DNA of 31,315 bases from a virus: the IMG/VR virus record IMGVR_UViG_3300037488_001629, positions 1 through 31,315 of that record, one strand, 5' to 3'. Each line of letters begins with the position of its first letter. Within the stretch, counting starts at the first letter, position 1. The notes below the pieces were generated by a model. It was given only the letters and a program-made list of their open reading frames with translations. It ran no database searches and was not told the DNA's origin. Of the stretch, positions 3,963 through 31,315 are shown in pieces. Position numbers and translations under genes: made by a program.

Positions 3963-4873
3963 TAACGCCTAACGGCACAGGGCTTCATGGGGGAAACCCC
4001 ATGTCGAAAATTGCCTAAACGGGGAAACCCCTTGCAGTTACATGGAACCTAGTCTATGATTTGGTTTTCCACTTTTTGTAAGGACAATCCCGTGCTAAAT
4101 ACTGATGATGTTTTGTGGAAGCCCGTCCCAGAATATGAAAATTTTTACATGGTTTCTAATACTGGGTTAGTTAAATCTATGGAGCGCACCGTAGTAAACA
4201 CACGTAGCTCTACTAGATTAATTAAAGAAAAGATTTTGAAAGGGCTACCAACAAAAACAGTGGACTATTTATATTTGTTTCTATACAAAGACAACAAGGC
4301 ACGACGGCACGCAATACACCGCTTAGTCGCATCTTGCTTTGTAGAGAACCCAGAAAACAAACCGCAGGTAAACCATAAAGACGGAAACAAGCGTAACAAT
4401 TTCGCTACTAATTTAGAATGGGTTACTATAACCGAGAACCATCAACATGCTTGGGCTAGCGGTCTTAATAATAGAGACCGATATGCATATATGCTAGGAG
4501 CTAAAAGCATTTCTAAATCCAAGTATCATAATGTTTGCTGGGATAAATCACGAAACAAGTGGATTGGTTCTGTTAAAGTTCTCGGTAAAATTCATGCACC
4601 TAAAAGATTTAGTGGAGAAGTTGATGCTGCTTTATATGTTAATTGGTTACTAGATTCTCTCGGGTTGTTTGATAGACCACGAAACATCATTAGTTAAATG
4701 CCTAACGATCATCCCGCAAGGGAGTAGGGTGCAAGCTAATGGCACTCGAAACGGTAATCCCCCTAACAGGTAGCGCTGAGGGGGTTGATATGATCTATTC
4801 TCATAAGCAATTATGAGCAGTCTACGTGGAAAATAGACGGTCGATACAGTTGCGCGTATTGGCGAATGCAAAG
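3963..4873 (+). ncRNA. Group I self-splicing intron (T4 td-like, subgroup IA2) with endonuclease ORF
   Basis: The core elements match the phage T4 td intron as I remember it. P2 is a perfect hairpin CATGGGG-GAAA-CCCCATG (3986-4003). CTAAACGGGGAA (4015-4026) is the P element and GACAATCCCGTGCTAAAT (4083-4100) the Q element, with ACGGG/CCCGT able to form P4. P7 is GATCAT (4707-4712) with ATGATC (4790-4795), where td has GACUAU/AUAGUC, a compensatory change. A TCCC-GCAA-GGGA hairpin lies near 4711-4722, ACTCGAAACG near 4744-4753, and the P9-like stem CTCATAA-GCAA-TTATGAG at 4800-4817. The chosen borders follow the U/G rule (exon ends in T3962, intron ends in G4873). The P1 pairing I can draw is short, so borders of 3967/4878, giving the same protein, remain possible. 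Confidence 0.92.
4056..4697 (+). CDS. HNH homing endonuclease of the intron (NUMOD4-HNH-AP2-like)
   Basis: The frame encodes up to 213 residues and lies in the loop between the intron's Q element and P7. Domain order: a NUMOD4-like start ([17 protein letters not shown], about residues 21-37), an HNH domain ([28 protein letters not shown], about 88-128), and an AP2-like DNA-binding tail ([15 protein letters not shown] onwards, about 155-205). Family members cut the intronless allele to drive homing, which would make its target the ATPase gene here. The start is uncertain: ATG 4056 would make the N-terminus overlap the Q element, and GTG 4092 or TTG 4113 sit just before the NUMOD4 motif. The stop at 4695-4697 lies ten bases before P7. 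Confidence 0.9.
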
Positions 4874-5756
4874 AAATGGAATTCCTGACCGTGCTGATGG
4901 CCGCTTGGTATGGCTTCCACCCGCCATTATCCCCTTAGCGCATGATGCGCTGCCCGAAGGTCGTGCCGGCTGGCTGCTGTTCCTCGATGAAGCAAACAGC
5001 GCGGCGGTAGATGTACAGAAAGCCGCTTACAAGCTTATCCTTGATCGTGCTGTCGGCCAGTATGCGCTGCACCCTAACGTGTACATGGTTGTTGCTGGCA
5101 ACCTCGCCTCTGACCGGGCCATCGTTAATCGTATGCCGACGCCGCTGCAATCCCGCCTTGTTCACTTTCAACTTGACGTTGATGTTGATGCGTGGCTGGT
5201 ATGGGCTGAGCAGAACGGCATTGATGATCGCATCATGGCATTCATGCGCTTCTCACCCGATTCATTGCAGGCATTTAAGCCTGACAGCCCAGAAAATACT
5301 TACCCATGCCCGAGAACATGGCACATGGCGTCCCGTATTCTCGCCGTTTCCAAAGACATTGATACCGAACTGCTCTCCGGTGTCGTTGGTCAAGGCGCGG
5401 CACTTGAATTTAACACGTTCACGGAGATGTTCGACAAGTTGCCGTCGCTTGATGACGTTATCAAGTCGCCGCAGCGTGCACCTATGGTTGACGAGCCTAG
5501 TATCACGCATGTTTTGTTCTCGCTGCTGATCAAGAAGATCGACGCGATCAACGCGAATGCAGTCGTTACCTATGCGTCACGTTATGCTGTCGAGTATCAG
5601 TTCTATCTGTTCCAGCAACTGCGTAAGCAGCGCGACTTGGCAAGCGGCCTTAAAGGCTCGCCGCCTGACCCTGTTAAACACGCTAGACTGAGAGGTGCAT
5701 TGCAAACTGCTGCGATGGTGGAGTGGATGCAGAAATATGCGGAGAAGATGTTATGA
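4874..5756 (+). CDS. MoxR-type AAA+ ATPase, exon 2
   Basis: After splicing this encodes residues 58 (third base) to 351. It carries Walker B LLFLDEAN (D96, E97 of the spliced protein), a sensor-1-like segment (YMVVAGN), and a PTPLQSRL segment with a likely arginine finger. A helical lid region follows. The apparent ATG at 4866 lies inside the intron and has no ribosome-binding site, so it should not be taken as a start. The stop overlaps the next start as ATGA (5753-5756), which couples this ATPase to its probable partner. The biological target is unknown; the fold assignment is firm. Confidence 0.9.
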
Positions 5757-6997
5757 CCGCATTACTGAAGAAGGATGACATCGAACTGGCAATGAGTAAA
5801 GCGCGCATCCAAGTAATGATGCACTCCGCTTTTTTCAGTTCATTGCTTTTGTCAACCCCGCTTCGTGCTGCTCCCGATAAAACAAAAACGATAAGCGCTG
5901 GACGCACATCAATGGTTTACAACCCGACGTGGTTGGAGAATACGGACCCTAAGTATTATTCGTTTCTTTTACTGCACGAAGCGTTACACATTGCGTTTGA
6001 GCATGGCGCTCGCCGTGGCGCGCGTGACCCTGATATCTGGAATTCCGCCTGTGATATATGGGTTAATGAAACTATCGCCAAGGGTATCCCGCTGCCGGTG
6101 CATCCTCAGTCGTTGCGTAATCCTGCGCTTGCTGACCAAAGCGTAGAGATTATCTACAAAATCCTGAAGGATATGCAGCAGGACAAGCCGAAGGATGACC
6201 CGCAGAATGACCCAAGTTCACCGCCTGACCCGAACGGTGCGCCCGGCAATGACCCAAACGCCACGCCAAGCCCCGGCAAGGGGTCAAACGCAGGGGTTAA
6301 AGGGTTCCCCGGTCCCGACATAGCCAGTGACCCCGACGATGCGCAGAATGATGGCCCAGCAGGCGCAGACGACACGGCTTCATCAGGGCCGAAGGCGATG
6401 CTTGCCCGTGCAGTACAGGCCGCAGTAATGGCGAACGAAATGGGCAACATGCCCGCTGAGTTACGCCGGGAAGTTGGCGAGGTGCTGGCACCCAAGGTGT
6501 CGTGGCAAGAAATGCTGCGCCGCTTTGTCAGTGAGCGCGTTAAGCATGGCGTAACATGGACCAAACGTAACCGGAGGTTTACGGACATCTACTTGCCATC
6601 ACACGAAACGCTGGGCATTAACGAGATCGTCATTGCCATTGACACATCGGGGAGTATCAATGCACAGCAGTTTGGCGCATTTATGGGCGAGCTTAATGCC
6701 ATCCGTGCCGAAGTGCATCCGCAGAAAACGCACGTTGTAATGTGCGATGCAAAAATACAGGATGCCAAACAGTTCGATGCTTATGAAGACATCAACATTA
6801 AAATAAAAGGCGGTGGCGGTACAAAGTTCGACCCGGTGTGGGACTTCGTTAAGAAGATGCCCGATAAGCCCGCGTTGATCGTGTATTTTACGGACGGCAT
6901 GGGGCGATGGGGTAATGACCCCGGTGTTCCTGTATTGTGGGCATTAACGGGGCGGAATGTGTCGCCGCCGTTTGGTGAAAAGACTTTTATTATTTAG
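5753..6997 (+). CDS. Zinc-metallopeptidase-like + VWA protein (DUF2201 type), MoxR partner
   Basis: The gene encodes 414 residues. ATG 5753 was chosen over the in-frame ATG 5723 because it overlaps the ATPase stop and has GGAG nine bases upstream. The N-terminal domain has HEALH (H75, E76, H79) followed by H84, a zincin-type motif, as in DUF2201_N proteins. Residues about 140-215 are a disordered Pro/Asp/Gly-rich linker. The C-terminal VWA-like domain has a MIDAS motif DTSGS (297-301) and a later TDGMG. In known MoxR/VWA pairs the VWA protein is the adaptor recognised by the ATPase. Whether the peptidase site is active cannot be told from sequence. Confidence 0.85.
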   Translation: MTALLKKDDIELAMSKARIQVMMHSAFFSSLLLSTPLRAAPDKTKTISAGRTSMVYNPTWLENTDPKYYSFLLLHEALHIAFEHGARRGARDPDIWNSACDIWVNETIAKGIPLPVHPQSLRNPALADQSVEIIYKILKDMQQDKPKDDPQNDPSSPPDPNGAPGNDPNATPSPGKGSNAGVKGFPGPDIASDPDDAQNDGPAGADDTASSGPKAMLARAVQAAVMANEMGNMPAELRREVGEVLAPKVSWQEMLRRFVSERVKHGVTWTKRNRRFTDIYLPSHETLGINEIVIAIDTSGSINAQQFGAFMGELNAIRAEVHPQKTHVVMCDAKIQDAKQFDAYEDINIKIKGGGGTKFDPVWDFVKKMPDKPALIVYFTDGMGRWGNDPGVPVLWALTGRNVSPPFGEKTFII

Positions 6998-12294: not shown

Positions 12295-12612
12295 ATGACA
12301 CCTGAAGGTGAAGTAAAAGAAAAAGTAAAAAAGCTGTTACATAAATACGGAGTGTATTATGAAATGTATGTGCCATCCGGGTACGGAAAGCAATCACTGG
12401 ATTTTGTGTGTTGTGCGTTTGGCACATACTTAGCAATTGAAACGAAGCAGGCGGGTAAGAAGCTTACCCCACGGCAACAAAAGACGGCGCTCGATATGCG
12501 CAAAGCAGGCGCACTTGTTGTTGAAATTATCGGGCTTGATTCACCTAATTTCGAGAAGCTTGAGCAATGGCTAATGACACTCCAAGCAATGAAGAACTTG
12601 CAGGGCTTGTAA
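12295..12612 (+). CDS. VRR-NUC-like PD-(D/E)xK nuclease
   Basis: The gene encodes 105 residues. I chose ATG 12295; the same frame extends back to a GTG at 12250, but that lies inside the terminator. The core has the layout of a small VRR-NUC domain: an N-terminal helix, then SLDFVCCAFG (active-site Asp), LAIETKQAG (the ExK pair) and PRQQKTALDMRKAGALVVEI. Such nucleases act on branched or flapped DNA in phage replication or recombination. Its 3' end overlaps the polymerase start by 46 bases, so the two are coupled. Confidence 0.8.
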   Translation: MTPEGEVKEKVKKLLHKYGVYYEMYVPSGYGKQSLDFVCCAFGTYLAIETKQAGKKLTPRQQKTALDMRKAGALVVEIIGLDSPNFEKLEQWLMTLQAMKNLQGL

Positions 12613-15398
12613 CAATAGACTTCGAGACTTATTACGATAAAGAATATAGTCTCAGCAAGCTTACAACAGAAGAGTACGTTCGCAGCCCGTTGTTTGAGGT
12701 TATTGGTGTTTCAATAATTACGCCGCGCGGCGTGTATTGGCTTAGTGAAAGCGAATTCCGCGATCTAGCATCCAAAGTCGATTTCAGTAAAACACTCCTT
12801 CTGGCGCACAATACGCAGTTCGACGGTGCGATACTTAGCTGGCACTATGGGGTGCGCCCGAAGATGTGGCTAGATACGCTGTCGATGGCCCGAGCATTGC
12901 AGAACAACGAGAAATCAAATTCCCTTGGCGCACTGGCTGAACAGTTCGGTCTCGGCGTTAAGGGTAACGAAGTTGTAACTGCACTCGGTAAGCGTAGAAA
13001 AGACTTTACCCAGCGCGAGTGGGAGCAGTATGGCGTGTACTGTAAAAATGACTCGCAACTTACGCTGGACCTGTTCACGATGCTGGTCAAGCAGTTCCCC
13101 ACCAGCGAGCTACAGATTATTGACATTACGCTGCGCATGTTCATTGAGCCGCTCATCGAGCTTGATCAGGACATGCTCAGCGAAGCGTATTATGAAGAAG
13201 TTGATGCGTTGGAAGCGCTGCTGCAACGGCTTCAAATTTCAGAAAAAGACTTAGCCAGCAACGATAAGTTCGCGGCGATACTGCAAGGGTTGGGTGTTGA
13301 CCCGCCAACAAAGATCAGCCCGAAGACTGGCAAACAAGCGTTCGCGTTTGCAAAAACGGATATCGGGTTTCAGGAACTCGCCGATTCATCCGACCCGCAG
13401 ATTGCGCTACTCTGTGATGCACGGTTGAAAGCAAAAAGCACGCTGATGCGTACACGTTCGCAGCGACTGTATGACATCGCGACACGGGGCGCACTTCCAG
13501 TACCCTTGCAGTATTACGGGGCGCACACTGGCAGGTTCGCAGCAAGTAAGCAGCAAGCCATTAACATGCAGAATCTGAAGCGTGGCAGTAAGTTACGCCG
13601 CGCGATTCTTGCCCCCAAGGGCATGATGTTCGGCGTTGGCGACTTGAAGCAGATTGAAGTGCGCGTATTGGCAACACTTGCAGGGTTTGGTGAACTGCTT
13701 AAAGTGTTGGAGAATGATGACCCATATGCTATTTATGGTGCGGAGATGTTTAACGTACCGGGGATGACTAAAGAGACACACCCGTTATTGAGGCAAGCTG
13801 CAAAGTCGGCTTTACTAGGTGCAGGATATGGTCTCGGCGGATTTGCGTTCGCAGCGCAATTACTGTCTGGCTTCATGGGTGCGCCTCCGGTGCGCTATGA
13901 AATGCCCTTCATCAGCACGATGGGCTACGATGTTGTTGATGTTATGGAGTGGCTGAAAGATACCAAGCTGACCGAAAGAATACTTACAATTCCTCACGGT
14001 TGCACTGATAATCAGCTTTTGATTCATGCGTTTGCTGCATTCAAGATCATTGAGAAATATCGTAATAAATCGGTGCCTGTTGTTAATTTGTGGGGTGAAT
14101 GCAAAAAGGCAATAAAGCATATTGAGCGCGATTGCAGAACCACTTTTCTGGATGATTCTTTCGGGCTACTACTCGAACACCATAAAATACAACTACCTAA
14201 TAAAATGTACCTGCGGTATCCTGACCTTCGGTACATCGAAGAAGACGGCGAGCGCAAACAGGTGTACGGTAAGCGCAGCAAGAAGATTTACGGCGGTGCA
14301 TTATGTGTATCTGGTGAAACATTAGTGCTTACTTCCCGTGGGTGGGTTGAGCTTAGGTGCGTTAAAGATGTGGACCTTGTACATGATGGTAATTCTTTTG
14401 TAAGCCATGAGGGTGTAGTATATAAGGCAGCGCAGCAATGCGTTTCGATAGACGGGGTTTGGATGACCCCAGAACATGAGGTATTGACAAATGAGGGATG
14501 GAAACCTGCATTGGAAAAACCGGAACCTTACCGGCCAAATCTTCGGGATGTTGACTGCGCTACGCCCAATGGAATCAAACGGGAAAAAGATGCGGTGGGA
14601 GTACCTGTGCACTTGCGGAAAAACAGTAGTAAAAGTTGGGGCGGATGTTACGAAAGCATTAAAAAATGGTGGAGTACCAAACTGCGGGTGTTTGACAAAG
14701 ACACTGCAAATGAAAGCAAAGAGTCATGGCATGACAGGCCACCCTGCTTATTGGGTGTGGCGCAGCATGCAAGACCGCTGCCGCTTACCTACGCACCAAG
14801 CATGGAAAAACTATGGCGCGCGTGGAATATCTGTTTGCATACAGTGGGGGAGCTTCGAGACCTTTTGGGGAGATATGGGGCCGACGTATGTAGCAGGGTT
14901 GCAGCTAGACCGGATAGACAACGACAAAGGGTATTACAAAGAAAATTGCCGGTGGGTAACGCCACGAGAAAATTCGATGAACAGGCGGAGCAGTATTCGC
15001 TGGGTGGATATACCAACGATAGCCACAACAACAGGTATATCTCGCTCAACGCTTTATTACCGTTTAAAACACAGCATACCTTTGACATAGTTAATTGTGG
15101 CCCCTTAAAGCGTTTTGTTGTATTAGGTAATGCTGGACCCTTTATTGTGCATAACTGTGAAAATATAACACAAGCAGATGCCCGTATCGTAATGACTGAT
15201 GCGATGTTGCGCATCGCCAAGGAGCTTCCGATTGTTCTCACGGTACACGACGAAATTGTGTGTCTTGTGCCTGAGAATGACGCGGAAGCAGCGACGAACT
15301 GGATGCATGAACAGATGATTGTGCATCCGCCATACTTACCCGCGATTAAGCTGGCGGTTGATGGCGGGTTTGGTAAAATTTATGGAGATATAAAATGA
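12567..15398 (+). CDS. Family A DNA polymerase with 3'-5' exonuclease, interrupted by an intein
   Basis: The precursor has 943 residues, 659 after removal of the 284-residue intein. The exonuclease motifs are TIDFET (D18, E20), LLAHNTQFD and YCKNDSQLTLDL. Polymerase motif A is GDLKQIEVR (catalytic D359). Motif B begins RQAAKSALLGAGYG (from about R409). Motif C is VHDE (about 893-896). The intein lies between motifs B and C, in the conserved YGGxL-CEN segment. There is no separate 5'-3' exonuclease domain, as usual for phage enzymes. ATG 12567 lies within the previous gene; the stop overlaps the next start as ATGA. It is the replicative polymerase of this phage. Confidence 0.95.
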   Translation: MANDTPSNEELAGLVTIDFETYYDKEYSLSKLTTEEYVRSPLFEVIGVSIITPRGVYWLSESEFRDLASKVDFSKTLLLAHNTQFDGAILSWHYGVRPKMWLDTLSMARALQNNEKSNSLGALAEQFGLGVKGNEVVTALGKRRKDFTQREWEQYGVYCKNDSQLTLDLFTMLVKQFPTSELQIIDITLRMFIEPLIELDQDMLSEAYYEEVDALEALLQRLQISEKDLASNDKFAAILQGLGVDPPTKISPKTGKQAFAFAKTDIGFQELADSSDPQIALLCDARLKAKSTLMRTRSQRLYDIATRGALPVPLQYYGAHTGRFAASKQQAINMQNLKRGSKLRRAILAPKGMMFGVGDLKQIEVRVLATLAGFGELLKVLENDDPYAIYGAEMFNVPGMTKETHPLLRQAAKSALLGAGYGLGGFAFAAQLLSGFMGAPPVRYEMPFISTMGYDVVDVMEWLKDTKLTERILTIPHGCTDNQLLIHAFAAFKIIEKYRNKSVPVVNLWGECKKAIKHIERDCRTTFLDDSFGLLLEHHKIQLPNKMYLRYPDLRYIEEDGERKQVYGKRSKKIYGGALCVSGETLVLTSRGWVELRCVKDVDLVHDGNSFVSHEGVVYKAAQQCVSIDGVWMTPEHEVLTNEGWKPALEKPEPYRPNLRDVDCATPNGIKREKDAVGVPVHLRKNSSKSWGGCYESIKKWWSTKLRVFDKDTANESKESWHDRPPCLLGVAQHARPLPLTYAPSMEKLWRAWNICLHTVGELRDLLGRYGADVCSRVAARPDRQRQRVLQRKLPVGNATRKFDEQAEQYSLGGYTNDSHNNRYISLNALLPFKTQHTFDIVNCGPLKRFVVLGNAGPFIVHNCENITQADARIVMTDAMLRIAKELPIVLTVHDEIVCLVPENDAEAATNWMHEQMIVHPPYLPAIKLAVDGGFGKIYGDIK
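14478..14482 (+). promoter_or_regulatory. Ribosome-binding site for the out-of-frame endonuclease
   Basis: GAGGT lies eight bases before ATG 14491, inside codons of intein block B (H-E-V-L-T). It gives the nested frame its own plausible translation signal, independent of the polymerase. Confidence 0.6.
14491..15090 (+). CDS. HNH-type homing endonuclease nested out of frame inside the intein
   Basis: The frame encodes 199 residues, offset by one base from the polymerase frame (14491 is 1 modulo 3; the polymerase is 0). It starts just after block B and ends (TAG 15088-15090) inside block F. The sequence is clearly protein-like: LTGQIFGMLTAL, then a YLCTCGK...CGCL zinc knuckle, HGMTGHPAYWVWRSMQDRC, NYGARGISVC, SFETFWGDMG, and the core LDRIDNDKGYYKENCRWVT. 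That is the pattern of phage HNH/AP2-associated endonucleases. The C-terminus (DIPTIATTTGISRSTLYYRL) is a helix-turn-helix like those that help homing enzymes bind DNA. The likely target is the intein-free polymerase gene. Confidence 0.9.
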   Translation: MRDGNLHWKNRNLTGQIFGMLTALRPMESNGKKMRWEYLCTCGKTVVKVGADVTKALKNGGVPNCGCLTKTLQMKAKSHGMTGHPAYWVWRSMQDRCRLPTHQAWKNYGARGISVCIQWGSFETFWGDMGPTYVAGLQLDRIDNDKGYYKENCRWVTPRENSMNRRSSIRWVDIPTIATTTGISRSTLYYRLKHSIPLT

Positions 15399-15550
15399 AA
15401 TGGCTTAAAAAGAAAGTATGTGAACTTTTCGGACACAAAATTGTTTGCCAAGTACGTGTGCATGAAGGGCTAGGAACACACTATTACCACTCACACGACT
15501 ACTGCGAACGCTGCGGTGAAAAGTGGGTTCCATTTTACATGGGTGATTAA
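15395..15550 (+). CDS. DUF1660-like small zinc-ribbon protein
   Basis: The frame encodes 51 residues and overlaps the polymerase stop as ATGA. The N-terminal VCELFGHK and C-terminal CERCGEKW motifs match the DUF1660 pattern of phage and prophage proteins, in which a C...H...CxxC set probably binds zinc. No function is established. It has no ribosome-binding site of its own beyond the coupling, so it should depend on polymerase translation. Confidence 0.72.
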   Translation: MKWLKKKVCELFGHKIVCQVRVHEGLGTHYYHSHDYCERCGEKWVPFYMGD

Positions 15551-16701: not shown

Positions 16702-18282
16702 ATGTACGGTAGCAAAGAGTTTAATAAACTCGTTATTCAAACTGACCAGATATCACGGCTGCAAAGCGTTGTGCCTGAGACTGTCGTATCCCGGCAGTTT
16801 CCCAACATCGCTTATGTGCCGTGGGAACTGGACGTATGCACGAAGTTGGAGAAGCTTGGCTTCAAGCGCATAGTCTCACCCGTTTTCAAAAACTATGCAT
16901 GGTCAGGTAATAAAACGCCGTACAAGAAGCAGGCCGAGATAACCGGGTTTTGTTCACTCAACCCCCGTGGCTTTGTGATTACTGGTATCGGCAGCGGCAA
17001 GACGAACGGAACTCTATGGGCCGCAGATTATTTGATGTCCATCGGTGCTGTTCGGAAGTGCTTGATTATTACCACACTATCCACGGTTGATGTGGTATGG
17101 TCCGATACGCTGTTCTGTGATTATTACCATCGGCGGCATGCGGTGCTGACTGGCACTGCTGAGCGGCGGCAGCGGTTATTCGCAGATACAAACAATGATT
17201 TTTACATAATCAACCATGATGCGTTTTCAATTATCCGCAATCAATTTTTGCAGCGCAACGACATTGACCTGATAATCATAGACGAAAGCACTGCCTATAA
17301 AAACGCAGGTACAAAGCGGTTTCAGCGGCTTGAAAAAGCAATATTGGTAAAACAGCCGAAATATGTGTGGGCGCTTACCGCCACGCCGACACCCAACGAG
17401 CCCACGGATGCATGGGGGCAAGCGAAACTTTTAGGGCTAAACAAGGGCGTGTCGTTCAGTCGGTTCAAAGACTTGACGATGCGCAAGGTTACGAACTTTC
17501 GATGGGAGCCATTACCTGAAGCGCATAAATATGTAGCCAACATCCTTACGCCGTCGATACGCTTCGCAACCAGCGAGTGTGTTGATCTGCCACCATGCAT
17601 CTACTCTGCCCGCAAGGCGTACCTTACTGGTGCGCAGATGGCGATGTTCAAGGAAATGACGAAGAAGCTGACTGTTGATTTTGCGAACGGTCAGGCGAAT
17701 GCAGTCAATGAAGCTGACAAACAGAATAAGCTACTTCAGATAGCGTGCGGTTTTATATACTCACGTGATGCAAATAACGAAGTAGTGACGCAGCATGTTG
17801 ACCCGACTGCACGGCTTGCGGTACTCGATGAAATACTTGGCACACTGCCGGGGAAAGCGATAATCTTCGTCCCCTACACAGAGCTTATCGGGATACTGGT
17901 GAAGCACTTGACACCCCGAGGGAACTGCGCTACAGTGTACGGCGAGATTAGTCGGAACGACCGGGTAGATATTTTCAGGGATTTTCAGCAAACGAATAAT
18001 ATAAAATACATAATTGCGCATCCAAAAACAATGGCGCATGGCGTTACACTTACAGCAGCAGCGACGATTATCTGGTACGCTCCATACGCAAGCAACGAAG
18101 TTTATGAGCAAGCGAATGGGCGCATCAATCGACCGTCGCAGGTTAATACAACCAACATCGTGCATATTGAAAGCACAGAATTGGAGAAGCGAATTTTTGC
18201 CAAACTAGCACGGCGTCAGAACACTCAGGGGACGCTGCTTGATTACTTGTCGGAGTTGCAAAATGCCCGAACAACTTATTGA
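16702..18282 (+). CDS. SNF2-like SF2 helicase/translocase
   Basis: The gene encodes 526 residues, with ATG after TTAGGAACTACG. Motif I is GIGSGKT (about residues 95-101), motif II is DEST (about 194-197), motif III is ALTATPTPN (about 225-233), and the C-terminal lobe has ANGRINRPSQ (about 470-480, motif VI). The overall layout fits small phage SNF2/DEAD-type ATPases that remodel DNA-protein complexes or branch-migrate replication forks. There is no extra nuclease domain in the protein. The next gene's start lies inside its 3' end, so these are co-translated. Confidence 0.9.
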   Translation: MYGSKEFNKLVIQTDQISRLQSVVPETVVSRQFPNIAYVPWELDVCTKLEKLGFKRIVSPVFKNYAWSGNKTPYKKQAEITGFCSLNPRGFVITGIGSGKTNGTLWAADYLMSIGAVRKCLIITTLSTVDVVWSDTLFCDYYHRRHAVLTGTAERRQRLFADTNNDFYIINHDAFSIIRNQFLQRNDIDLIIIDESTAYKNAGTKRFQRLEKAILVKQPKYVWALTATPTPNEPTDAWGQAKLLGLNKGVSFSRFKDLTMRKVTNFRWEPLPEAHKYVANILTPSIRFATSECVDLPPCIYSARKAYLTGAQMAMFKEMTKKLTVDFANGQANAVNEADKQNKLLQIACGFIYSRDANNEVVTQHVDPTARLAVLDEILGTLPGKAIIFVPYTELIGILVKHLTPRGNCATVYGEISRNDRVDIFRDFQQTNNIKYIIAHPKTMAHGVTLTAAATIIWYAPYASNEVYEQANGRINRPSQVNTTNIVHIESTELEKRIFAKLARRQNTQGTLLDYLSELQNARTTY

Positions 18283-25788: not shown

Positions 25789-26035
25789 AACTTCGGTTCG
25801 CGCTTTTCGGCTTTGCGCGTAGATTACCCGGCGCGTTCGTTCCGCCTGAACGTATGGGTTTTTTGTGGTCAACGTCCTTGCCATCGCCTTTTGACACCGC
25901 ACCCTTCTTTACCATCGCAGCGCGTGCAGCATTACGTTGTGCGCGCTTTTTCTTTTGTTCTTCCGTGCCTTGGTATTTGTCATACTCTGCACGGTAGTTG
26001 CGGCCATGTGCTTTGTCTTTGTTACTTACGCCCAT
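25775..26035 (-). CDS. Small HNH-like protein downstream of the giant virion-type protein
   Basis: The gene encodes 86 residues from ATG 26035 (a GTG three bases earlier is possible). The start overlaps the preceding stop as TGATG, with ACAGGAG upstream on the - strand. After a basic, helical N-terminus the core GDGKDVDHKKPIRSGGTNAP followed by NLRAKPKSANRSF matches the D-H...N...N pattern of small phage HNH-type proteins. It is often found beside structural or packaging genes. Whether it cuts DNA is unproven. Confidence 0.75.
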   Translation of the reverse strand: MGVSNKDKAHGRNYRAEYDKYQGTEEQKKKRAQRNAARAAMVKKGAVSKGDGKDVDHKKPIRSGGTNAPGNLRAKPKSANRSFNRK

Positions 26036-29000
26036 CACTCTTCTCCTGTAGCAATCTCTTCTTCAAAATACTTCCGCATTTCTTCAGGAAGTTTCTTGGC
26101 ACCGCGTCGTGACAACGTATCGCGGGCATCCATCGCCAGTTCATTAACCGTATCCATATTCGGTTCTACGCGAATTGGTATGCCTGCATCACGGTAAATG
26201 CTGTTAAGCTCTTTCGCTTCGTTACGCAAGTGGCTAACCAAGTCCGTGTCGCCATCCGCTTTCGCAAGGCCCATCTGGTTATTGTAGCTGCGAACGAGGT
26301 TGTTCTGAATATCCTTGAAAATCTGAATCCGGTCACGCCGGCCATATTCTGCAACGGATTCAGTCGGTCTCCATCCGAGGAACTGCATGAAGGCGTCGAA
26401 GTTGTCGAGTTCGGTCGCCACTGTCTTGCCATCCCGAGACCGCGCTTCCCCGGTCGAAGCAACCAGTGCGCCGTTGACTGCGTTGCGCACAGCGCTTATC
26501 GGCAGGGTCTTCAGGGTCCGCATGAAATACTCTGATGGGTCTCTGCCCAGCGCAGCGGCCATCGCCATATCGGCGGCATTGCCAGTTGACGTCAACGTGG
26601 CATCAAGGAAGCCCCCTATAGGGCCAAGAAGCGGGAAAATGTCGCTGCCAGTACCTGAGTCTAGGCCGCGTGCAAAACCGTGAAATCCGAGCTTCCCTGA
26701 GCCGTCCGCGCCGGTTATCGCGTTGAACATGCCCTTACGAACAAGTTCCCCACCGTCTTCGCCAGCCCACTGCATCAAAGCATCTGTGTTTTCAACGTAC
26801 CACTGTTTCACATTTCCACTGAATGCCATGCTACCGAAGCGCCCGAAAACCTGCGGGAACCGGCGCGTAAGTGCGTCGAGCAGATTCTCGATATCCTCCT
26901 TGAACGGAATGCCATCGAGACCGGCCAGCGCAGTAAGTAGCGCGAGATACATGGCTTGACCAGCCAGCGGCATCGCCTTCAGCAACTGCACTTGCACCAA
27001 TGGGTAATGCATAAACATGGTGAGCGCGCGGCCCCACCCTTTTTGTAGCCAAGGTGCGCGAGCCCACTGCGAGTAAATGCCCTGCGAATGTTCGACAGTT
27101 TCATCCGCTTCGCGTGCGATACGCTTAAATACTGGGTCGTTATACGTCGAAGCGCCTGCGTCGAGAATACGCTTCTTGTCCGCAGCCGGCAGGGCATCAA
27201 ACGCGAGGTTGAACGATGTAACCCACGAAGCCATGCGAATGTACGCTTCCGACAGTGCGAAGGGCTTCATAAACATTTCAGTGTACTTGTTTACTTTCCT
27301 GCGCTGTGGAGAGAAACCTTTCCAATACATGTCGGTTACTTCCATAACCTGACCTACCTGCAATTTCCCCTCTTTTACTTCTTTAAGCACGTAGTCCCAC
27401 ATCAACTTATCGCGCCCAGTCAAGTTGGCGTTTTTAAGCTTGTCTTCCATCACGCGCTCGAATGACTGCGTAGCGTTCCCCGTGTTCAGGAACAGCTTCA
27501 TTTTCGATATACTGCGCATGCTGCGTGATAGTTCTTTCGCTACATTCGTAAACCCGTATCCACCACCATAGCCGGACGGCGTATGCTTCGCGCCGAGATA
27601 CGACATGGTGAGAATCGGCAAGCTCATAATCTGCGTTACCGCTGTTGAGACATTACCAATAAGGAATGACGTTGCCGCGAAGTGCATCGTGTTGTCGAAT
27701 ATATTCGGCGCGCGGCCTGCTTCAGCGCGATATTCAGCAAAGACCTTTTTAGCAAGGTCTTGTACGTTGTTCGCGAACTCGGCATTTTTCTTGTTCAGCG
27801 CTACGCCTTCGGTAAGCTCGCGCACCATTTCAGCCTTCTCGGGCGAGTCGTCCATCAACGCCGTGTTTTTCAGCATGGTCTCGACTTCAGTAGCGCTCCA
27901 GCTTGACTTGTACAAAATGTTGTCAAACTCAACTTGTGTGTAGTTGTTCGCCACAATATAGGCGTTACCGTTGAGGTATGCGCCAAACGCGCGCCAGATG
28001 TCTTTATCTGCGCCTTTTGCAGCGCGGTATTTCAGCGCTTTAAGCTGCTTGGAGGTACGGTTGGCGAGTGCCTTTACAAGCTGTTCGCGCTGGACGCCGG
28101 TAAGGTTGACGTTGCTACGCTCCAGTTGGTTGGTAAACGTAAACAGGTCGAAGTACGGTGCGGGTGCTTTCGCCAAGGCTTCATAGTCGTTGCGCACTGC
28201 TTCGAGAACGATCTTGGCGCGGCGCTTGTTGCCACCACGATCAATAACTTCGATACGCAGTTCCTGCGCGTTCGGGTCAGTCGCATACCATTTCGCGAAG
28301 TCCTGTGCTTCTTTGAATGTATCGAAGCCCTGCACGAAAGACGGGTATTTGTCGAAGTCCACGCGCACCGGCTCGCCGTCATCATCCACAAGGCGCGAAT
28401 AAACGCGGTTCGTGCTGCTGCGCTGGTGAGCGATATAGAAGTGCGCGACAGTATCCACGGCTTTCGACATGTACTGCGACGATTCCGCGCGAGTAGCGGC
28501 GACGTTGTTGAGCAGCGCGCCAAGGCGCTGTTGCAGAATATCACGCTTTGTCGGGTCCAGATCGCGGCTTATAGAGTCAATAACTGCCTTGTTATCTGTG
28601 TACAGCTTGAATGCCTTCGCTGCGCGCTCCTTGGCTTCCGAAGGAACAACCGGGGCCATATCGGCCATTTCTTCATCTACAGTCTGCGCCTTCGGCGTAG
28701 CATCATAAGTGGTATCTTTACCCTTTTCCTGATTCTCGATATGTTTTTGTATCGTGGCGAGAAACTGCCGCGCAACTTCCACATCATCCGCATACGCACC
28801 GCTGAAGGTATCAACAAGTTTATGCATCGAATTCCGCGCATCACTCGGGTAGCGCAGATACACCTTATTGGCGAGTTCGTTCGTGGACTCTTTGGCGTAC
28901 AAATTCGACTGCTGGTGCTGCGATATCGCGCGCTCCAAGGCCGCAATAACGAGCAGTTTATGCGATTTTTTCGCAATCTCCATCGCGTTTTCGGAGTACG

Positions 29001-31315
29001 CGAAGTCGTGTACATCGGTCTCAGCGGGGACGCCAGTACCCTGCATATTCTCGCGCCAGTACGTTGCGCGGAGTTTCCCTTTTTTAAGGTCCGGCTGGCG
29101 TGCAAGCGCAGTTTTCCAGAAAAGATCGACAATGGCGTCAACTTCTTCAGACTTCTGCAATTTGGCAAAGCGCGTTTCCACATCCAGACTGGCATCCTGC
29201 TCAGTGCGCGTGGCAATCTTTGTAACCATATCCGTGAATGATTCGCGCAGTGCCTTATCGTGCGACACCACGCCGATCATGTCATCCGAGATAATGCGCA
29301 TCGCGATTGACGCAGCGCTGGTATCCTTCTTCAGCGGGGCAGTGTCGCCATAGTTCAGCAGCGATATGGGTACAACATCTTCGAGATATTTTGTGTAGTT
29401 TGATTTCGAGTAATTTACCAAAGAGTCATGTTTCTGCGTAAGGCGCTTCAGCAACCTACCAAAGTAATTCTTGTTCAGAGTTTCGTTGAAGGGTACTGCC
29501 AGCCGCTCCCATACCGTTGCGCCGAAGTCGAGTGCTTTCGCACCCCCCGGTACTTTTTCACGCAGGAAATTGGATGCCCAGCGCGACATTTCCGTGAACA
29601 GGTACACTTCACTTTCGTTGCCAGCCTGAAGCGCGCGTTCGTGCGGAGTAAACTCGCTATTCTCGCCGATGCGCTCAATCTCGCGAAGATGCTCAGCCAT
29701 GCGCACCGCCCCCGGAGCGGCTTCTTTTGATGCAGATAACTTCGCAGCCGCTGCGGCATCAGCTTTTTCAGCTTTACCCTTGGCTGTGCTGGCGAGGGCC
29801 ATCTTACCCCCACCCGGCCCCGGTGTAGAGTTCTCAATCCATGACTGCGCAGCGCCACGGGCGAGGTTAATCGCCGCTTCCAGCCCGGTCGGCTTGTTGA
29901 TGTCAATATTGAAGCCATGCGACATCAGCCACTTCTTCACCGCTGCCACCATACGGGTCCAGAGCGGCAGCTTCTGCTGCATCCCTGCGCCTTCTTCGAT
30001 GAAGTAGGCCATCAGTTCGTGCGGCTTGGCCCGTTCGCTGGTCGTGTCAGGAATGCGGTTCTCGGCGGCGCGGACAAGCTTTTCGAGCGGGGTTGCCGGC
30101 TCCCTGCCGGCGATGCGTTTCTGCACTGCCTGAAGCTCAGAAAGAATGTTCTGATACGCCGGATTGAAAATCTCGTACATCCCCGCGTGGACACCGATAT
30201 CGTGCAGCAGCACACCGTCAGTTTCTGCAACAGCGGTATTTTCAGCGATGATATGCACTGTACCGTTGTGGTACAGCGCTTGTGCAGTTTTCGGATACCA
30301 CATACCCACCGCACCCGTAAAGCCGAGTTCTTCGTAATACGCTTGGCGTACAGCCTCAGACAAGTCCTTACCTGTTTTTACGACAATGAGCGAACCGCGC
30401 TTAATCGCGTTGTCAATATTGCCTTTACCATAGGTATCGTTCAGATGCTGCGTTACTGAGGCGAGAGTATGCGTTTCGCCTTTATCGCGAGCTTCGCGGG
30501 CTAGGGGGATATCGCCTTCGTCAGTAGCGCTGAGTTCATCAAGTTCCGCTTTGGACATTGACTTCTCAGGCTTCGGCTTTACTTGGTACGCAAGAATCGT
30601 ATCCGCGTCGTTCAGAATCGCTTTAAGGTCTTCGATACTAACGAAGGGGTCAGCGGCTGTCTGTTGCGATTCTTCGGCAAAGTCGTTTATAGCTTCCTGC
30701 TGCGTGGATGAATAGATGTGCGTATTCATCTTACGTGCAATCGCAGTAAGCTTTTGGCGAATCATCGACTTTTTGGAAGCGATATCTTTTGCTTCGTTAA
30801 GCGATGGCGCGGGGGCAGCAGTTTCCAGCGGCTTCGGTTCTACCTTAGTAGCAGTTTCGCGCGCCTTGTTGATGGTCGGTGCAGGTGCTTTCTCTGCCGC
30901 TTTTGGTTCTTCAACCGCCTGTTTCAGAGTAGGTACTTCCTGTGCCGGAGCGGGTGCTTCTTGCACTGGTGCAGGCGTAACTTCCTTCGCTTTCGCGCCT
31001 TTGTTACGTGCAAGCTGTTCACCCATGAAAGCGTCGGCCAAATCTTGCGTGCGCGCATCAGGAGCAATTACACCCCACTGGTTACGCAAATCTGAGTCAA
31101 GATCGCCAAACTTTATCTTTGTTACATTATCCGCGTAAGTGGAAAAATTCGTATCCCAATCTTGCGCAACACTTGCGCGCCCACGCTGCTTAATCGCCCG
31201 TTCGATGGGGTTCGGTGCAGGTGCTACAGGCGCAGGTGCTACAGGCGCAGGTGCTACAGGCGCAGGTGCTACAGGCGCAGGTGCTACAGGCGCAGGTGCT
31301 ACAGGCGCAGGTGCT
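26035..31315 (-). CDS. Giant virion-associated/polyvalent protein with PLxRFG-type C-terminal domain (5' end outside window)
   Basis: The - strand frame is open from the right edge to TGA at 26035-26037; about 1,759 residues are visible. The apparent TTG start at 31089 is internal, since the frame continues upstream through a P-A-P-V-A repeat. The visible order is: the repeat, a Pro/Ala-rich linker, a region with LLHDIGVHAGM (near 30178-30210, a degenerate zincin-like motif), a long helical middle, and a C-terminal 500-600 residues resembling the PLxRFG (tail-700) domain of giant phage proteins (SFLIGNVSTAVTQ, HYPLVQVQLLKAM, hydrophobic LALLTALAGL, FGRFGSM). Such proteins are carried in virions and may enter the host with the DNA. 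Family assignment is from memory of the pattern. Confidence 0.75.
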   Translation of the reverse strand, partial: APAPVAPAPVAPAPVAPAPVAPAPVAPAPVAPAPNPIERAIKQRGRASVAQDWDTNFSTYADNVTKIKFGDLDSDLRNQWGVIAPDARTQDLADAFMGEQLARNKGAKAKEVTPAPVQEAPAPAQEVPTLKQAVEEPKAAEKAPAPTINKARETATKVEPKPLETAAPAPSLNEAKDIASKKSMIRQKLTAIARKMNTHIYSSTQQEAINDFAEESQQTAADPFVSIEDLKAILNDADTILAYQVKPKPEKSMSKAELDELSATDEGDIPLAREARDKGETHTLASVTQHLNDTYGKGNIDNAIKRGSLIVVKTGKDLSEAVRQAYYEELGFTGAVGMWYPKTAQALYHNGTVHIIAENTAVAETDGVLLHDIGVHAGMYEIFNPAYQNILSELQAVQKRIAGREPATPLEKLVRAAENRIPDTTSERAKPHELMAYFIEEGAGMQQKLPLWTRMVAAVKKWLMSHGFNIDINKPTGLEAAINLARGAAQSWIENSTPGPGGGKMALASTAKGKAEKADAAAAAKLSASKEAAPGAVRMAEHLREIERIGENSEFTPHERALQAGNESEVYLFTEMSRWASNFLREKVPGGAKALDFGATVWERLAVPFNETLNKNYFGRLLKRLTQKHDSLVNYSKSNYTKYLEDVVPISLLNYGDTAPLKKDTSAASIAMRIISDDMIGVVSHDKALRESFTDMVTKIATRTEQDASLDVETRFAKLQKSEEVDAIVDLFWKTALARQPDLKKGKLRATYWRENMQGTGVPAETDVHDFAYSENAMEIAKKSHKLLVIAALERAISQHQQSNLYAKESTNELANKVYLRYPSDARNSMHKLVDTFSGAYADDVEVARQFLATIQKHIENQEKGKDTTYDATPKAQTVDEEMADMAPVVPSEAKERAAKAFKLYTDNKAVIDSISRDLDPTKRDILQQRLGALLNNVAATRAESSQYMSKAVDTVAHFYIAHQRSSTNRVYSRLVDDDGEPVRVDFDKYPSFVQGFDTFKEAQDFAKWYATDPNAQELRIEVIDRGGNKRRAKIVLEAVRNDYEALAKAPAPYFDLFTFTNQLERSNVNLTGVQREQLVKALANRTSKQLKALKYRAAKGADKDIWRAFGAYLNGNAYIVANNYTQVEFDNILYKSSWSATEVETMLKNTALMDDSPEKAEMVRELTEGVALNKKNAEFANNVQDLAKKVFAEYRAEAGRAPNIFDNTMHFAATSFLIGNVSTAVTQIMSLPILTMSYLGAKHTPSGYGGGYGFTNVAKELSRSMRSISKMKLFLNTGNATQSFERVMEDKLKNANLTGRDKLMWDYVLKEVKEGKLQVGQVMEVTDMYWKGFSPQRRKVNKYTEMFMKPFALSEAYIRMASWVTSFNLAFDALPAADKKRILDAGASTYNDPVFKRIAREADETVEHSQGIYSQWARAPWLQKGWGRALTMFMHYPLVQVQLLKAMPLAGQAMYLALLTALAGLDGIPFKEDIENLLDALTRRFPQVFGRFGSMAFSGNVKQWYVENTDALMQWAGEDGGELVRKGMFNAITGADGSGKLGFHGFARGLDSGTGSDIFPLLGPIGGFLDATLTSTGNAADMAMAAALGRDPSEYFMRTLKTLPISAVRNAVNGALVASTGEARSRDGKTVATELDNFDAFMQFLGWRPTESVAEYGRRDRIQIFKDIQNNLVRSYNNQMGLAKADGDTDLVSHLRNEAKELNSIYRDAGIPIRVEPNMDTVNELAMDARDTLSRRGAKKLPEEMRKYFEEEIATGEE
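31220..31309 (-). repeat. Six perfect 15-bp tandem repeats encoding PAPVA-type units
   Basis: GGTGCTACAGGCGCA on the + strand is repeated six times without change, and a partial seventh copy runs off the window at 31315. On the - strand it reads as the N-terminal Ala/Pro/Val repeat of the giant protein. The array probably continues beyond the window. Confidence 0.95.

Follow-up and report, generated by a model that had tools for sequence, protein, structure and literature searches.

The virus record IMGVR_UViG_3300037488_001629 of IMG/VR, analyzed here over its whole length of 31,315 bases (the window) and probably a fragment, codes for a family A DNA polymerase whose gene carries an intein and, overlapping the intein in a different reading frame, a gene for an HNH endonuclease. 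The polymerase open reading frame (ORF) of 943 amino acids is one continuous stop-free frame (phrog_17, E = 3e-62; Pfam DNA_pol_A, E = 4e-22). The intein (852 bp) is in frame with it, and the nested HNH gene is in the +1 frame relative to both. The first-pass annotation of this DNA had placed the intein blocks in the polymerase frame at 14304-15155 and a complete HNH ORF of 199 amino acids one base out of frame at 14491-15090; the coordinates, the Cys1, TPEH, HN, and Cys+1 residues, and the nested ORF were all verified. The features are listed below, with the structure prediction score (predicted local distance difference test, pLDDT) where it defines a segment.

12567-15398, plus strand: family A DNA polymerase gene, host of the intein
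12567-14303, plus strand: N-extein
14304-15155, plus strand: intein of 284 residues, with class 1 splicing residues and a predicted Hint fold
14304-14555, plus strand: N-terminal half of the Hint domain with blocks A and B, intein residues 1-84 (pLDDT >90 for residues 1-80)
14454-14501, plus strand: block B, GVWMTPEHEVLTNEGW, which also holds the putative ribosome-binding site and start codon of the nested gene
14478-14481, plus strand: GAGG Shine-Dalgarno-like sequence, 9 nt upstream of the HNH ATG and within the His-Glu-Val codons of block B
14485-14487, plus strand: TGA stop in the HNH frame, two codons upstream of the HNH start
14491-15090, plus strand: nested HNH endonuclease gene, 199 amino acids, +1 frame (phrog_374, E = 6.9e-52)
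14556-15053, plus strand: linker joining the Hint halves in the polymerase frame, intein residues 85-250, predicted to be disordered (pLDDT <50)
14902-14988, plus strand: HNH core, LDRIDND..Y..NCRW..N.R, with residues invariant over 38 sequences
15054-15155, plus strand: C-terminal half of the Hint domain with blocks F and G, intein residues 251-284 (block means of pLDDT 85-96)
15156-15395, plus strand: C-extein

The insertion point is a conserved polymerase segment, YGG-x-L / (C)EN-x-x-Q, and all of the residues of a class 1 intein are present and kept in relatives, including Cys1, T55-P-E-H58 in block B, and His283-Asn284 followed by Cys+1. In an AlphaFold2 model built from 35 aligned intein-frame sequences, the ordered parts correspond to a Hint domain, with 112 residues superimposing on the Mtu RecA intein (3ifj; VIA-align Z of 15.4, root mean square deviation of 2.2). 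Sequence families match the intein only marginally (phrog_26005, E = 0.0013), and a Pfam search returned no intein family for it; neither Pfam nor NCBIfam names the intein or the HNH protein of the window, whereas PHROGs and structure prediction do. The element thus has the class 1 residues and the predicted fold of an intein, and it presumably splices. Its linker gives no HNH match in the polymerase frame and is predicted to be disordered, and an endonuclease in frame with the intein is not found. The nested protein, modeled in the same way with 38 sequences, is well ordered (mean pLDDT of 87). Residues N144, Y148, N152, C153, W155, N164, and R166 of its HNH core are invariant among those sequences, and Cys40, Cys42, Cys65, and Cys67 are nearly invariant, as is the core. 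As modeled, the predicted disordered linker of the intein is a folded HNH protein read in the other frame.

This arrangement is shared by many phages. A tblastn search of annotated phages with the intein found full-length relatives in Shewanella phage SFCi1, the APSE phages, and the Caulobacter phages RLK, RW, KcrB, and GB2A, and a second tblastn query added about 160 further records, mainly of Salmonella and Escherichia phages. Scans of viral contigs contributed about 130 more loci, for which alignments were needed as queries, a scan with the window intein alone having yielded two viral contigs. A profile of the nested HNH detects a homologue outside the host frame in 144 of 147 intein loci (given L numbers below), 57 in the +1 frame and 87 in the +2 frame; two loci (L091 and L137) have no HNH by this profile, and the apparent in-frame case of L122, where the frame switches within the HNH, is an artifact that arises from an ambiguous N in its assembly. 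None of the 147 loci has a genuine in-frame HNH. The layout is also present in isolated phages (Ent1, SETP3, APSE-1, RLK, and SFCi1).

These counts bear on the alternative that a sequencing error or recent indel has shifted the in-frame HNH of a normal intein. A single base would be enough to do this in any one sequence, and L122 does switch frame within the HNH, although at the ambiguous N. However, the layout is common to 144 of the 147 loci from many contigs and isolated phages, none of the relatives is in frame, and a single indel cannot place both splicing halves in one frame and the HNH in another. Its occurrence in the five isolated phages named above already refutes such an origin, to which we assign practically no probability. 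The first-pass annotation had allowed both for in-frame relatives with a one-base error and for a nested frame devoid of homologues; the former come down to the base N of L122, and homologues of the latter are abundant and under purifying selection in the HNH frame.

That two frames stay open over about 600 nt is not expected by chance. We permuted the HNH codons synonymously and counted stops in the intein frame; for the window overlap, 5e-5 of draws (1 in 20,000) left the intein frame without a stop, with a mean of 6.8 stops expected and none observed, so that the initial estimate of about 7 in 100,000 was about right. The same permutation predicts about 2.8 open intein frames among the 145 overlaps tested and all 145 are open; after dereplication, 97 of 97 are open with 0.85 expected. 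The third frame contains 12 to 16 stops, matching expectation, and not one of 77 control HNH genes of the same family, located in viral contigs but not in inteins of this kind, stays open in either of its two other frames. These comparisons support the proposal that the need for splicing keeps the intein frame free of stops.

Substitution patterns differ by segment and frame, as measured by ratios of nonsynonymous to synonymous changes (N/S), which are simple ratios against single-change expectations and not fitted dN/dS models. Within the overlap, close pairs differ at the third position of HNH codons, with HNH-frame N/S values of 0.23 (+1 group) and 0.27 and intein-frame values of 2.1 and 1.3. 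Polymerase-frame N/S in the splicing blocks is 0.21 to 0.35, with 0.35 for the N-terminal half and 0.27 for the C-terminal half in the +1 group. Ten Salmonella and Escherichia phages (Jerseyvirus/Kagunavirus) give polymerase-frame values of 0.09 for the N-extein, 0.16 for the N-blocks, 0.10 for the C-block, and 0.14 for the C-extein, while their overlap has a value of 0.94 in the polymerase frame versus 0.29 in the HNH frame. Protein-level constraint thus acts on the splicing blocks in the host frame and on the HNH in the HNH frame, and the host frame of the overlap looks, from these ratios, to be constrained mainly against stops and not for amino acids.

The lack of constraint on the overlap raises the question of whether the HNH alone matters, with an insert that stays unspliced and an intein resemblance that is decorative or dead, much as in the ShiLan insertion of mycobacteriophage DNA methylases, in which the host-frame overlap is likewise disordered and unconstrained (PMC11855218). 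The evidence from the flanking blocks argues otherwise: all of the splicing residues are conserved, the Hint match has a Z of 15.4, and N/S in the splicing blocks is 0.10 to 0.35. Moreover, mini-inteins keep the splicing blocks after HNH loss. We therefore consider an unspliced insertion of this kind very unlikely.

The putative translation signals of the nested gene are written in the codons of block B, with both the GAGG and the ATG falling within the stretch that codes for H-E-V-L-T-N-E-G-W. Many +1 loci have the GAGG motif with equal spacing, and codon choice follows it: the Asn or Asp codon that makes the ATG ends in T (AAT/GAT) in 23 cases versus 2 in the +1 group, compared with 718 to 1,377 in the upstream polymerase, and the Glu codon of block B is GAG in preference to GAA by 26 to 3, against a background of 828 to 584. 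A stop in the HNH frame lies just ahead of the start region in 31 of the 57 +1 loci, as it does in the window, and this argues against expression by frameshifting from upstream. Programmed frameshifting, which would give a fusion of N-extein, intein, and HNH and no free protein, is suggested by the overlap of the two frames and by an HNH frame that is open far upstream in some +2 loci. Given the position of the stops, and a synonymous codon choice that favors a start codon and ribosome-binding site in that region, we regard it as very unlikely.

The distribution of the intein fits that of a mobile element. All 80 intein-free viral polymerases examined, which are about 40% identical to that of the window, align without gaps across the window junction. 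The 918-nt intein, with nothing more or less, is missing from four APSE records that share about 97% identity with APSE-1; in Salmonella phage skrot, at about 95% identity, the missing stretch is exactly 897 nt. Near-identical phages that differ by precisely the intein are as homing predicts, although we note that this presence/absence polymorphism is seen in other members of the class and not in near relatives of the window phage. Decay is also evident: the mini-inteins L124/L223 and L130 have lost most of the HNH by deletion, with the splicing frame kept and HNH remnants left in the +1 frame, and in L224 (an Arsenophonus endosymbiont prophage with an APSE-like polymerase intein) both the HNH and the polymerase are broken. 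Inteins follow a homing cycle of invasion, endonuclease decay, and persistence as a mini-intein, and the empty alleles, the mini-inteins, and the broken L224 copy fit this cycle.

In a tree of the HNH proteins (63 rows), three separate supported clades hold the main +1 group, the +2 group, and a small +1 group (L086, L090, and L140). Separate origins of the +1 and +2 groups had been expected at first, but the approximately unbiased (AU) test does not reject a common origin for all of the nested HNHs (p-AU = 0.61). If there was one origin, then the HNH frame relative to the intein has changed at least once without fusion.

HNH endonucleases of phages often sit in group I introns, and the homologous insert of Sodalis phage SO-1 is annotated as a "type I self-splicing intron," so that a self-splicing RNA intron carrying the HNH is another candidate. 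No Rfam match is present at window positions 13900-15500 at E values up to 1, and no intron match to Rfam is found in L083-L085 or L226. The insert is open in frame, and its intein blocks are under selection in the polymerase frame, leaving an intron with a negligible chance of being the correct explanation. The SO-1 locus itself (L226:1094-4282, gp38/gp39) is an intein with an HNH in the +2 frame.

We consider it very likely that the insert is a composite mobile element, in which an intein splices itself out of the polymerase and a separately translated, out-of-frame HNH spreads the DNA. The sequences themselves show a widely conserved two-frame layout, in which each product is constrained in its own segment; they also show that empty sites align without gaps, that near-identical phages of the class differ in whether they carry the element, and that deletions have removed the HNH while keeping the intein frame. 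Translation in the polymerase frame would yield a precursor whose linker, about 165 residues long, is predicted to be disordered; from this precursor the intein would excise itself to restore the polymerase. The HNH would be translated independently from its own ATG, using the GAGG ribosome-binding site inside block B, and would then presumably cleave the polymerase gene of a co-infecting phage that has no intein there; repair would copy the whole 852-bp element, completing homing.

Several points weigh against this reading or narrow its reach. Protein splicing, HNH translation, and cleavage are deduced from sequence and structure prediction. The sequence match of the nested HNH to I-HmuI (PDB 1u3e) is weak (E = 0.011), and a Foldseek search of its model against the PDB found no solved HNH structure, returning meaningless matches only. 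The Fisher p values for the start codon and GAG biases (3e-9 and 4e-4) are too small because related loci were counted as independent, although the direction is clear. Some +1 loci (APSE-1 and RLK) do not have the ATG/GAGG pair at offset 187, and their start would be at offset 202, where there is no clear ribosome-binding site; the start codon in the +2 group is ambiguous. Frameshifting is thus possible in those loci. Finally, the scan queries were full length and had the overlapping layout, and the scans ranked matches by similarity to them, so that in-frame relatives could be undersampled, and the ratio of 144 to 0 is not a census of phage inteins.

The window intein probably belongs to a large and unrecognized class of phage inteins with splicing functions in the host frame and a homing enzyme in the +1 or +2 frame, the group to which the window belongs having the HNH start signals in block B. 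Such elements resemble group I introns with an endonuclease ORF, except that splicing would be at the protein level, and their occurrence in two frames, at several sites, and in two host proteins suggests that this arrangement arose, or changed frame, on more than one occasion. The design of two proteins in one stretch of DNA is widespread in phages and mostly overlooked. Inteins are usually described as a single polypeptide with the endonuclease as a fused domain, the two being spliced out together; here, splicing and endonuclease functions are genetically uncoupled, yet locked together in the DNA by overlapping frames, which bears on how splicing domains and homing endonucleases join and separate. 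The prediction follows that inteins recorded as lacking an endonuclease merit re-reading in all frames. The overlap is also of interest as about 600 nt shared by two apparently functional genes, for which close phage relatives allow selection to be measured in each frame.

The layout described in the first-pass annotation is thus not peculiar to the window phage but extends to a large class that uses two frames and occupies several insertion sites in two host proteins. The hosts are family A polymerases, with three neighboring or distinct insertion sites, and SNF2/DEAD-type helicases (L131, L138, L140, and L142). The host protein in L121 has no family name, and its intein passes the Pfam Intein_splicing cutoff. 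The L142 helicase seems to carry a second intein (PF14890, ORF residues 172-440). The window itself codes for an SNF2-like phage helicase (phrog_62) at 16702-18282, with an uninterrupted LLQIACG segment that resembles the intein-bearing site of L131. Elsewhere in the window, the ORFs at 4056-4697 and 5723-6997 match the HNH endonuclease families phrog_59 and phrog_1314, respectively, and a 1,684-amino-acid ORF on the minus strand (26035-31089) is overlapped by several plus-strand ORFs and has only a weak match to phrog_11358, a family of unknown function.

GenBank records of class members contain parts of the arrangement. An overlapping ORF is annotated in APSE-1 (the HNH P46 inside P45) and in SO-1 (gp38/gp39), and an intein is annotated in Salmonella phage vB_SenS-Ent1 gp37. 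None of these records recognizes both halves; APSE-1 has no intein, SO-1 has the intron noted above, and Ent1 is described only as "encoding splicing domains." The annotations corrected by our analysis include those of the Salmonella phages, one of which was recorded with splicing domains only, and those of the aphid-symbiont phages, for which intein-free polymerases were called partial. The Hamiltonella phage APSE-8 polymerase (L308; LR794148.1) is annotated as "partial; missing large internal portions," and the missing part is the 918-nt intein with its nested HNH. The polymerase genes of Salmonella phages VT223 (L319) and Ijeoma (H52) are annotated as "endonuclease," perhaps because of the intein region.

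Inteins with in-frame endonucleases, such as Sce VMA (PI-SceI) and TliVMA, similarly have a Hint domain whose halves are separated, between blocks B and F, by sequence coding for the endonuclease, are located at a conserved site in an essential gene, and use Cys1, TxxH, HN, and Cys+1. They differ from the window intein, in which the endonuclease is in another frame, would be a protein separate from the intein, and requires a translation start of its own. Fractured genes, reportedly described by Dassa et al. in 2009, are said to have split inteins with a free-standing endonuclease between the halves. Their endonuclease is likewise translated apart from the intein, whereas the host gene and intein of the window form one continuous 943-amino-acid ORF that overlaps the endonuclease.

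Group I introns with HNH ORFs, including I-HmuI and I-PfoP3I, an HNH endonuclease of a group I intron in a phage DNA polymerase gene (PMC3428280), combine a splicing part with a separately translated HNH for homing and share the DNA polymerase host. In the window, splicing would be performed by protein, so the HNH gene must overlap a translated stop-free frame. Within the open-access literature covered here, the precedents found for an out-of-frame HNH are the ShiLan insertion and a genome note on a methylase of the ShiLan type (PMC12613952). Of these described cases, the ShiLan insertion comes closest, with an HNH that is out of frame but has no intein around it. In the DNA methylases of mycobacteriophages, the ShiLan domain and the Pacc40 insertion encode an HNH out of frame (Arsenault, Gosselin and Gogarten 2025, PMC11855218), and the authors found neither a splicing domain nor a ribosome-binding site and think that the insertion stays in the host protein. 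The two systems are alike in having an out-of-frame HNH, an insert that is open in the host frame, and a sporadic distribution. Unlike the ShiLan insertion, the class described here has a complete Hint domain for its removal, and its hosts are the polymerase and helicase genes of many phages and not a methylase.

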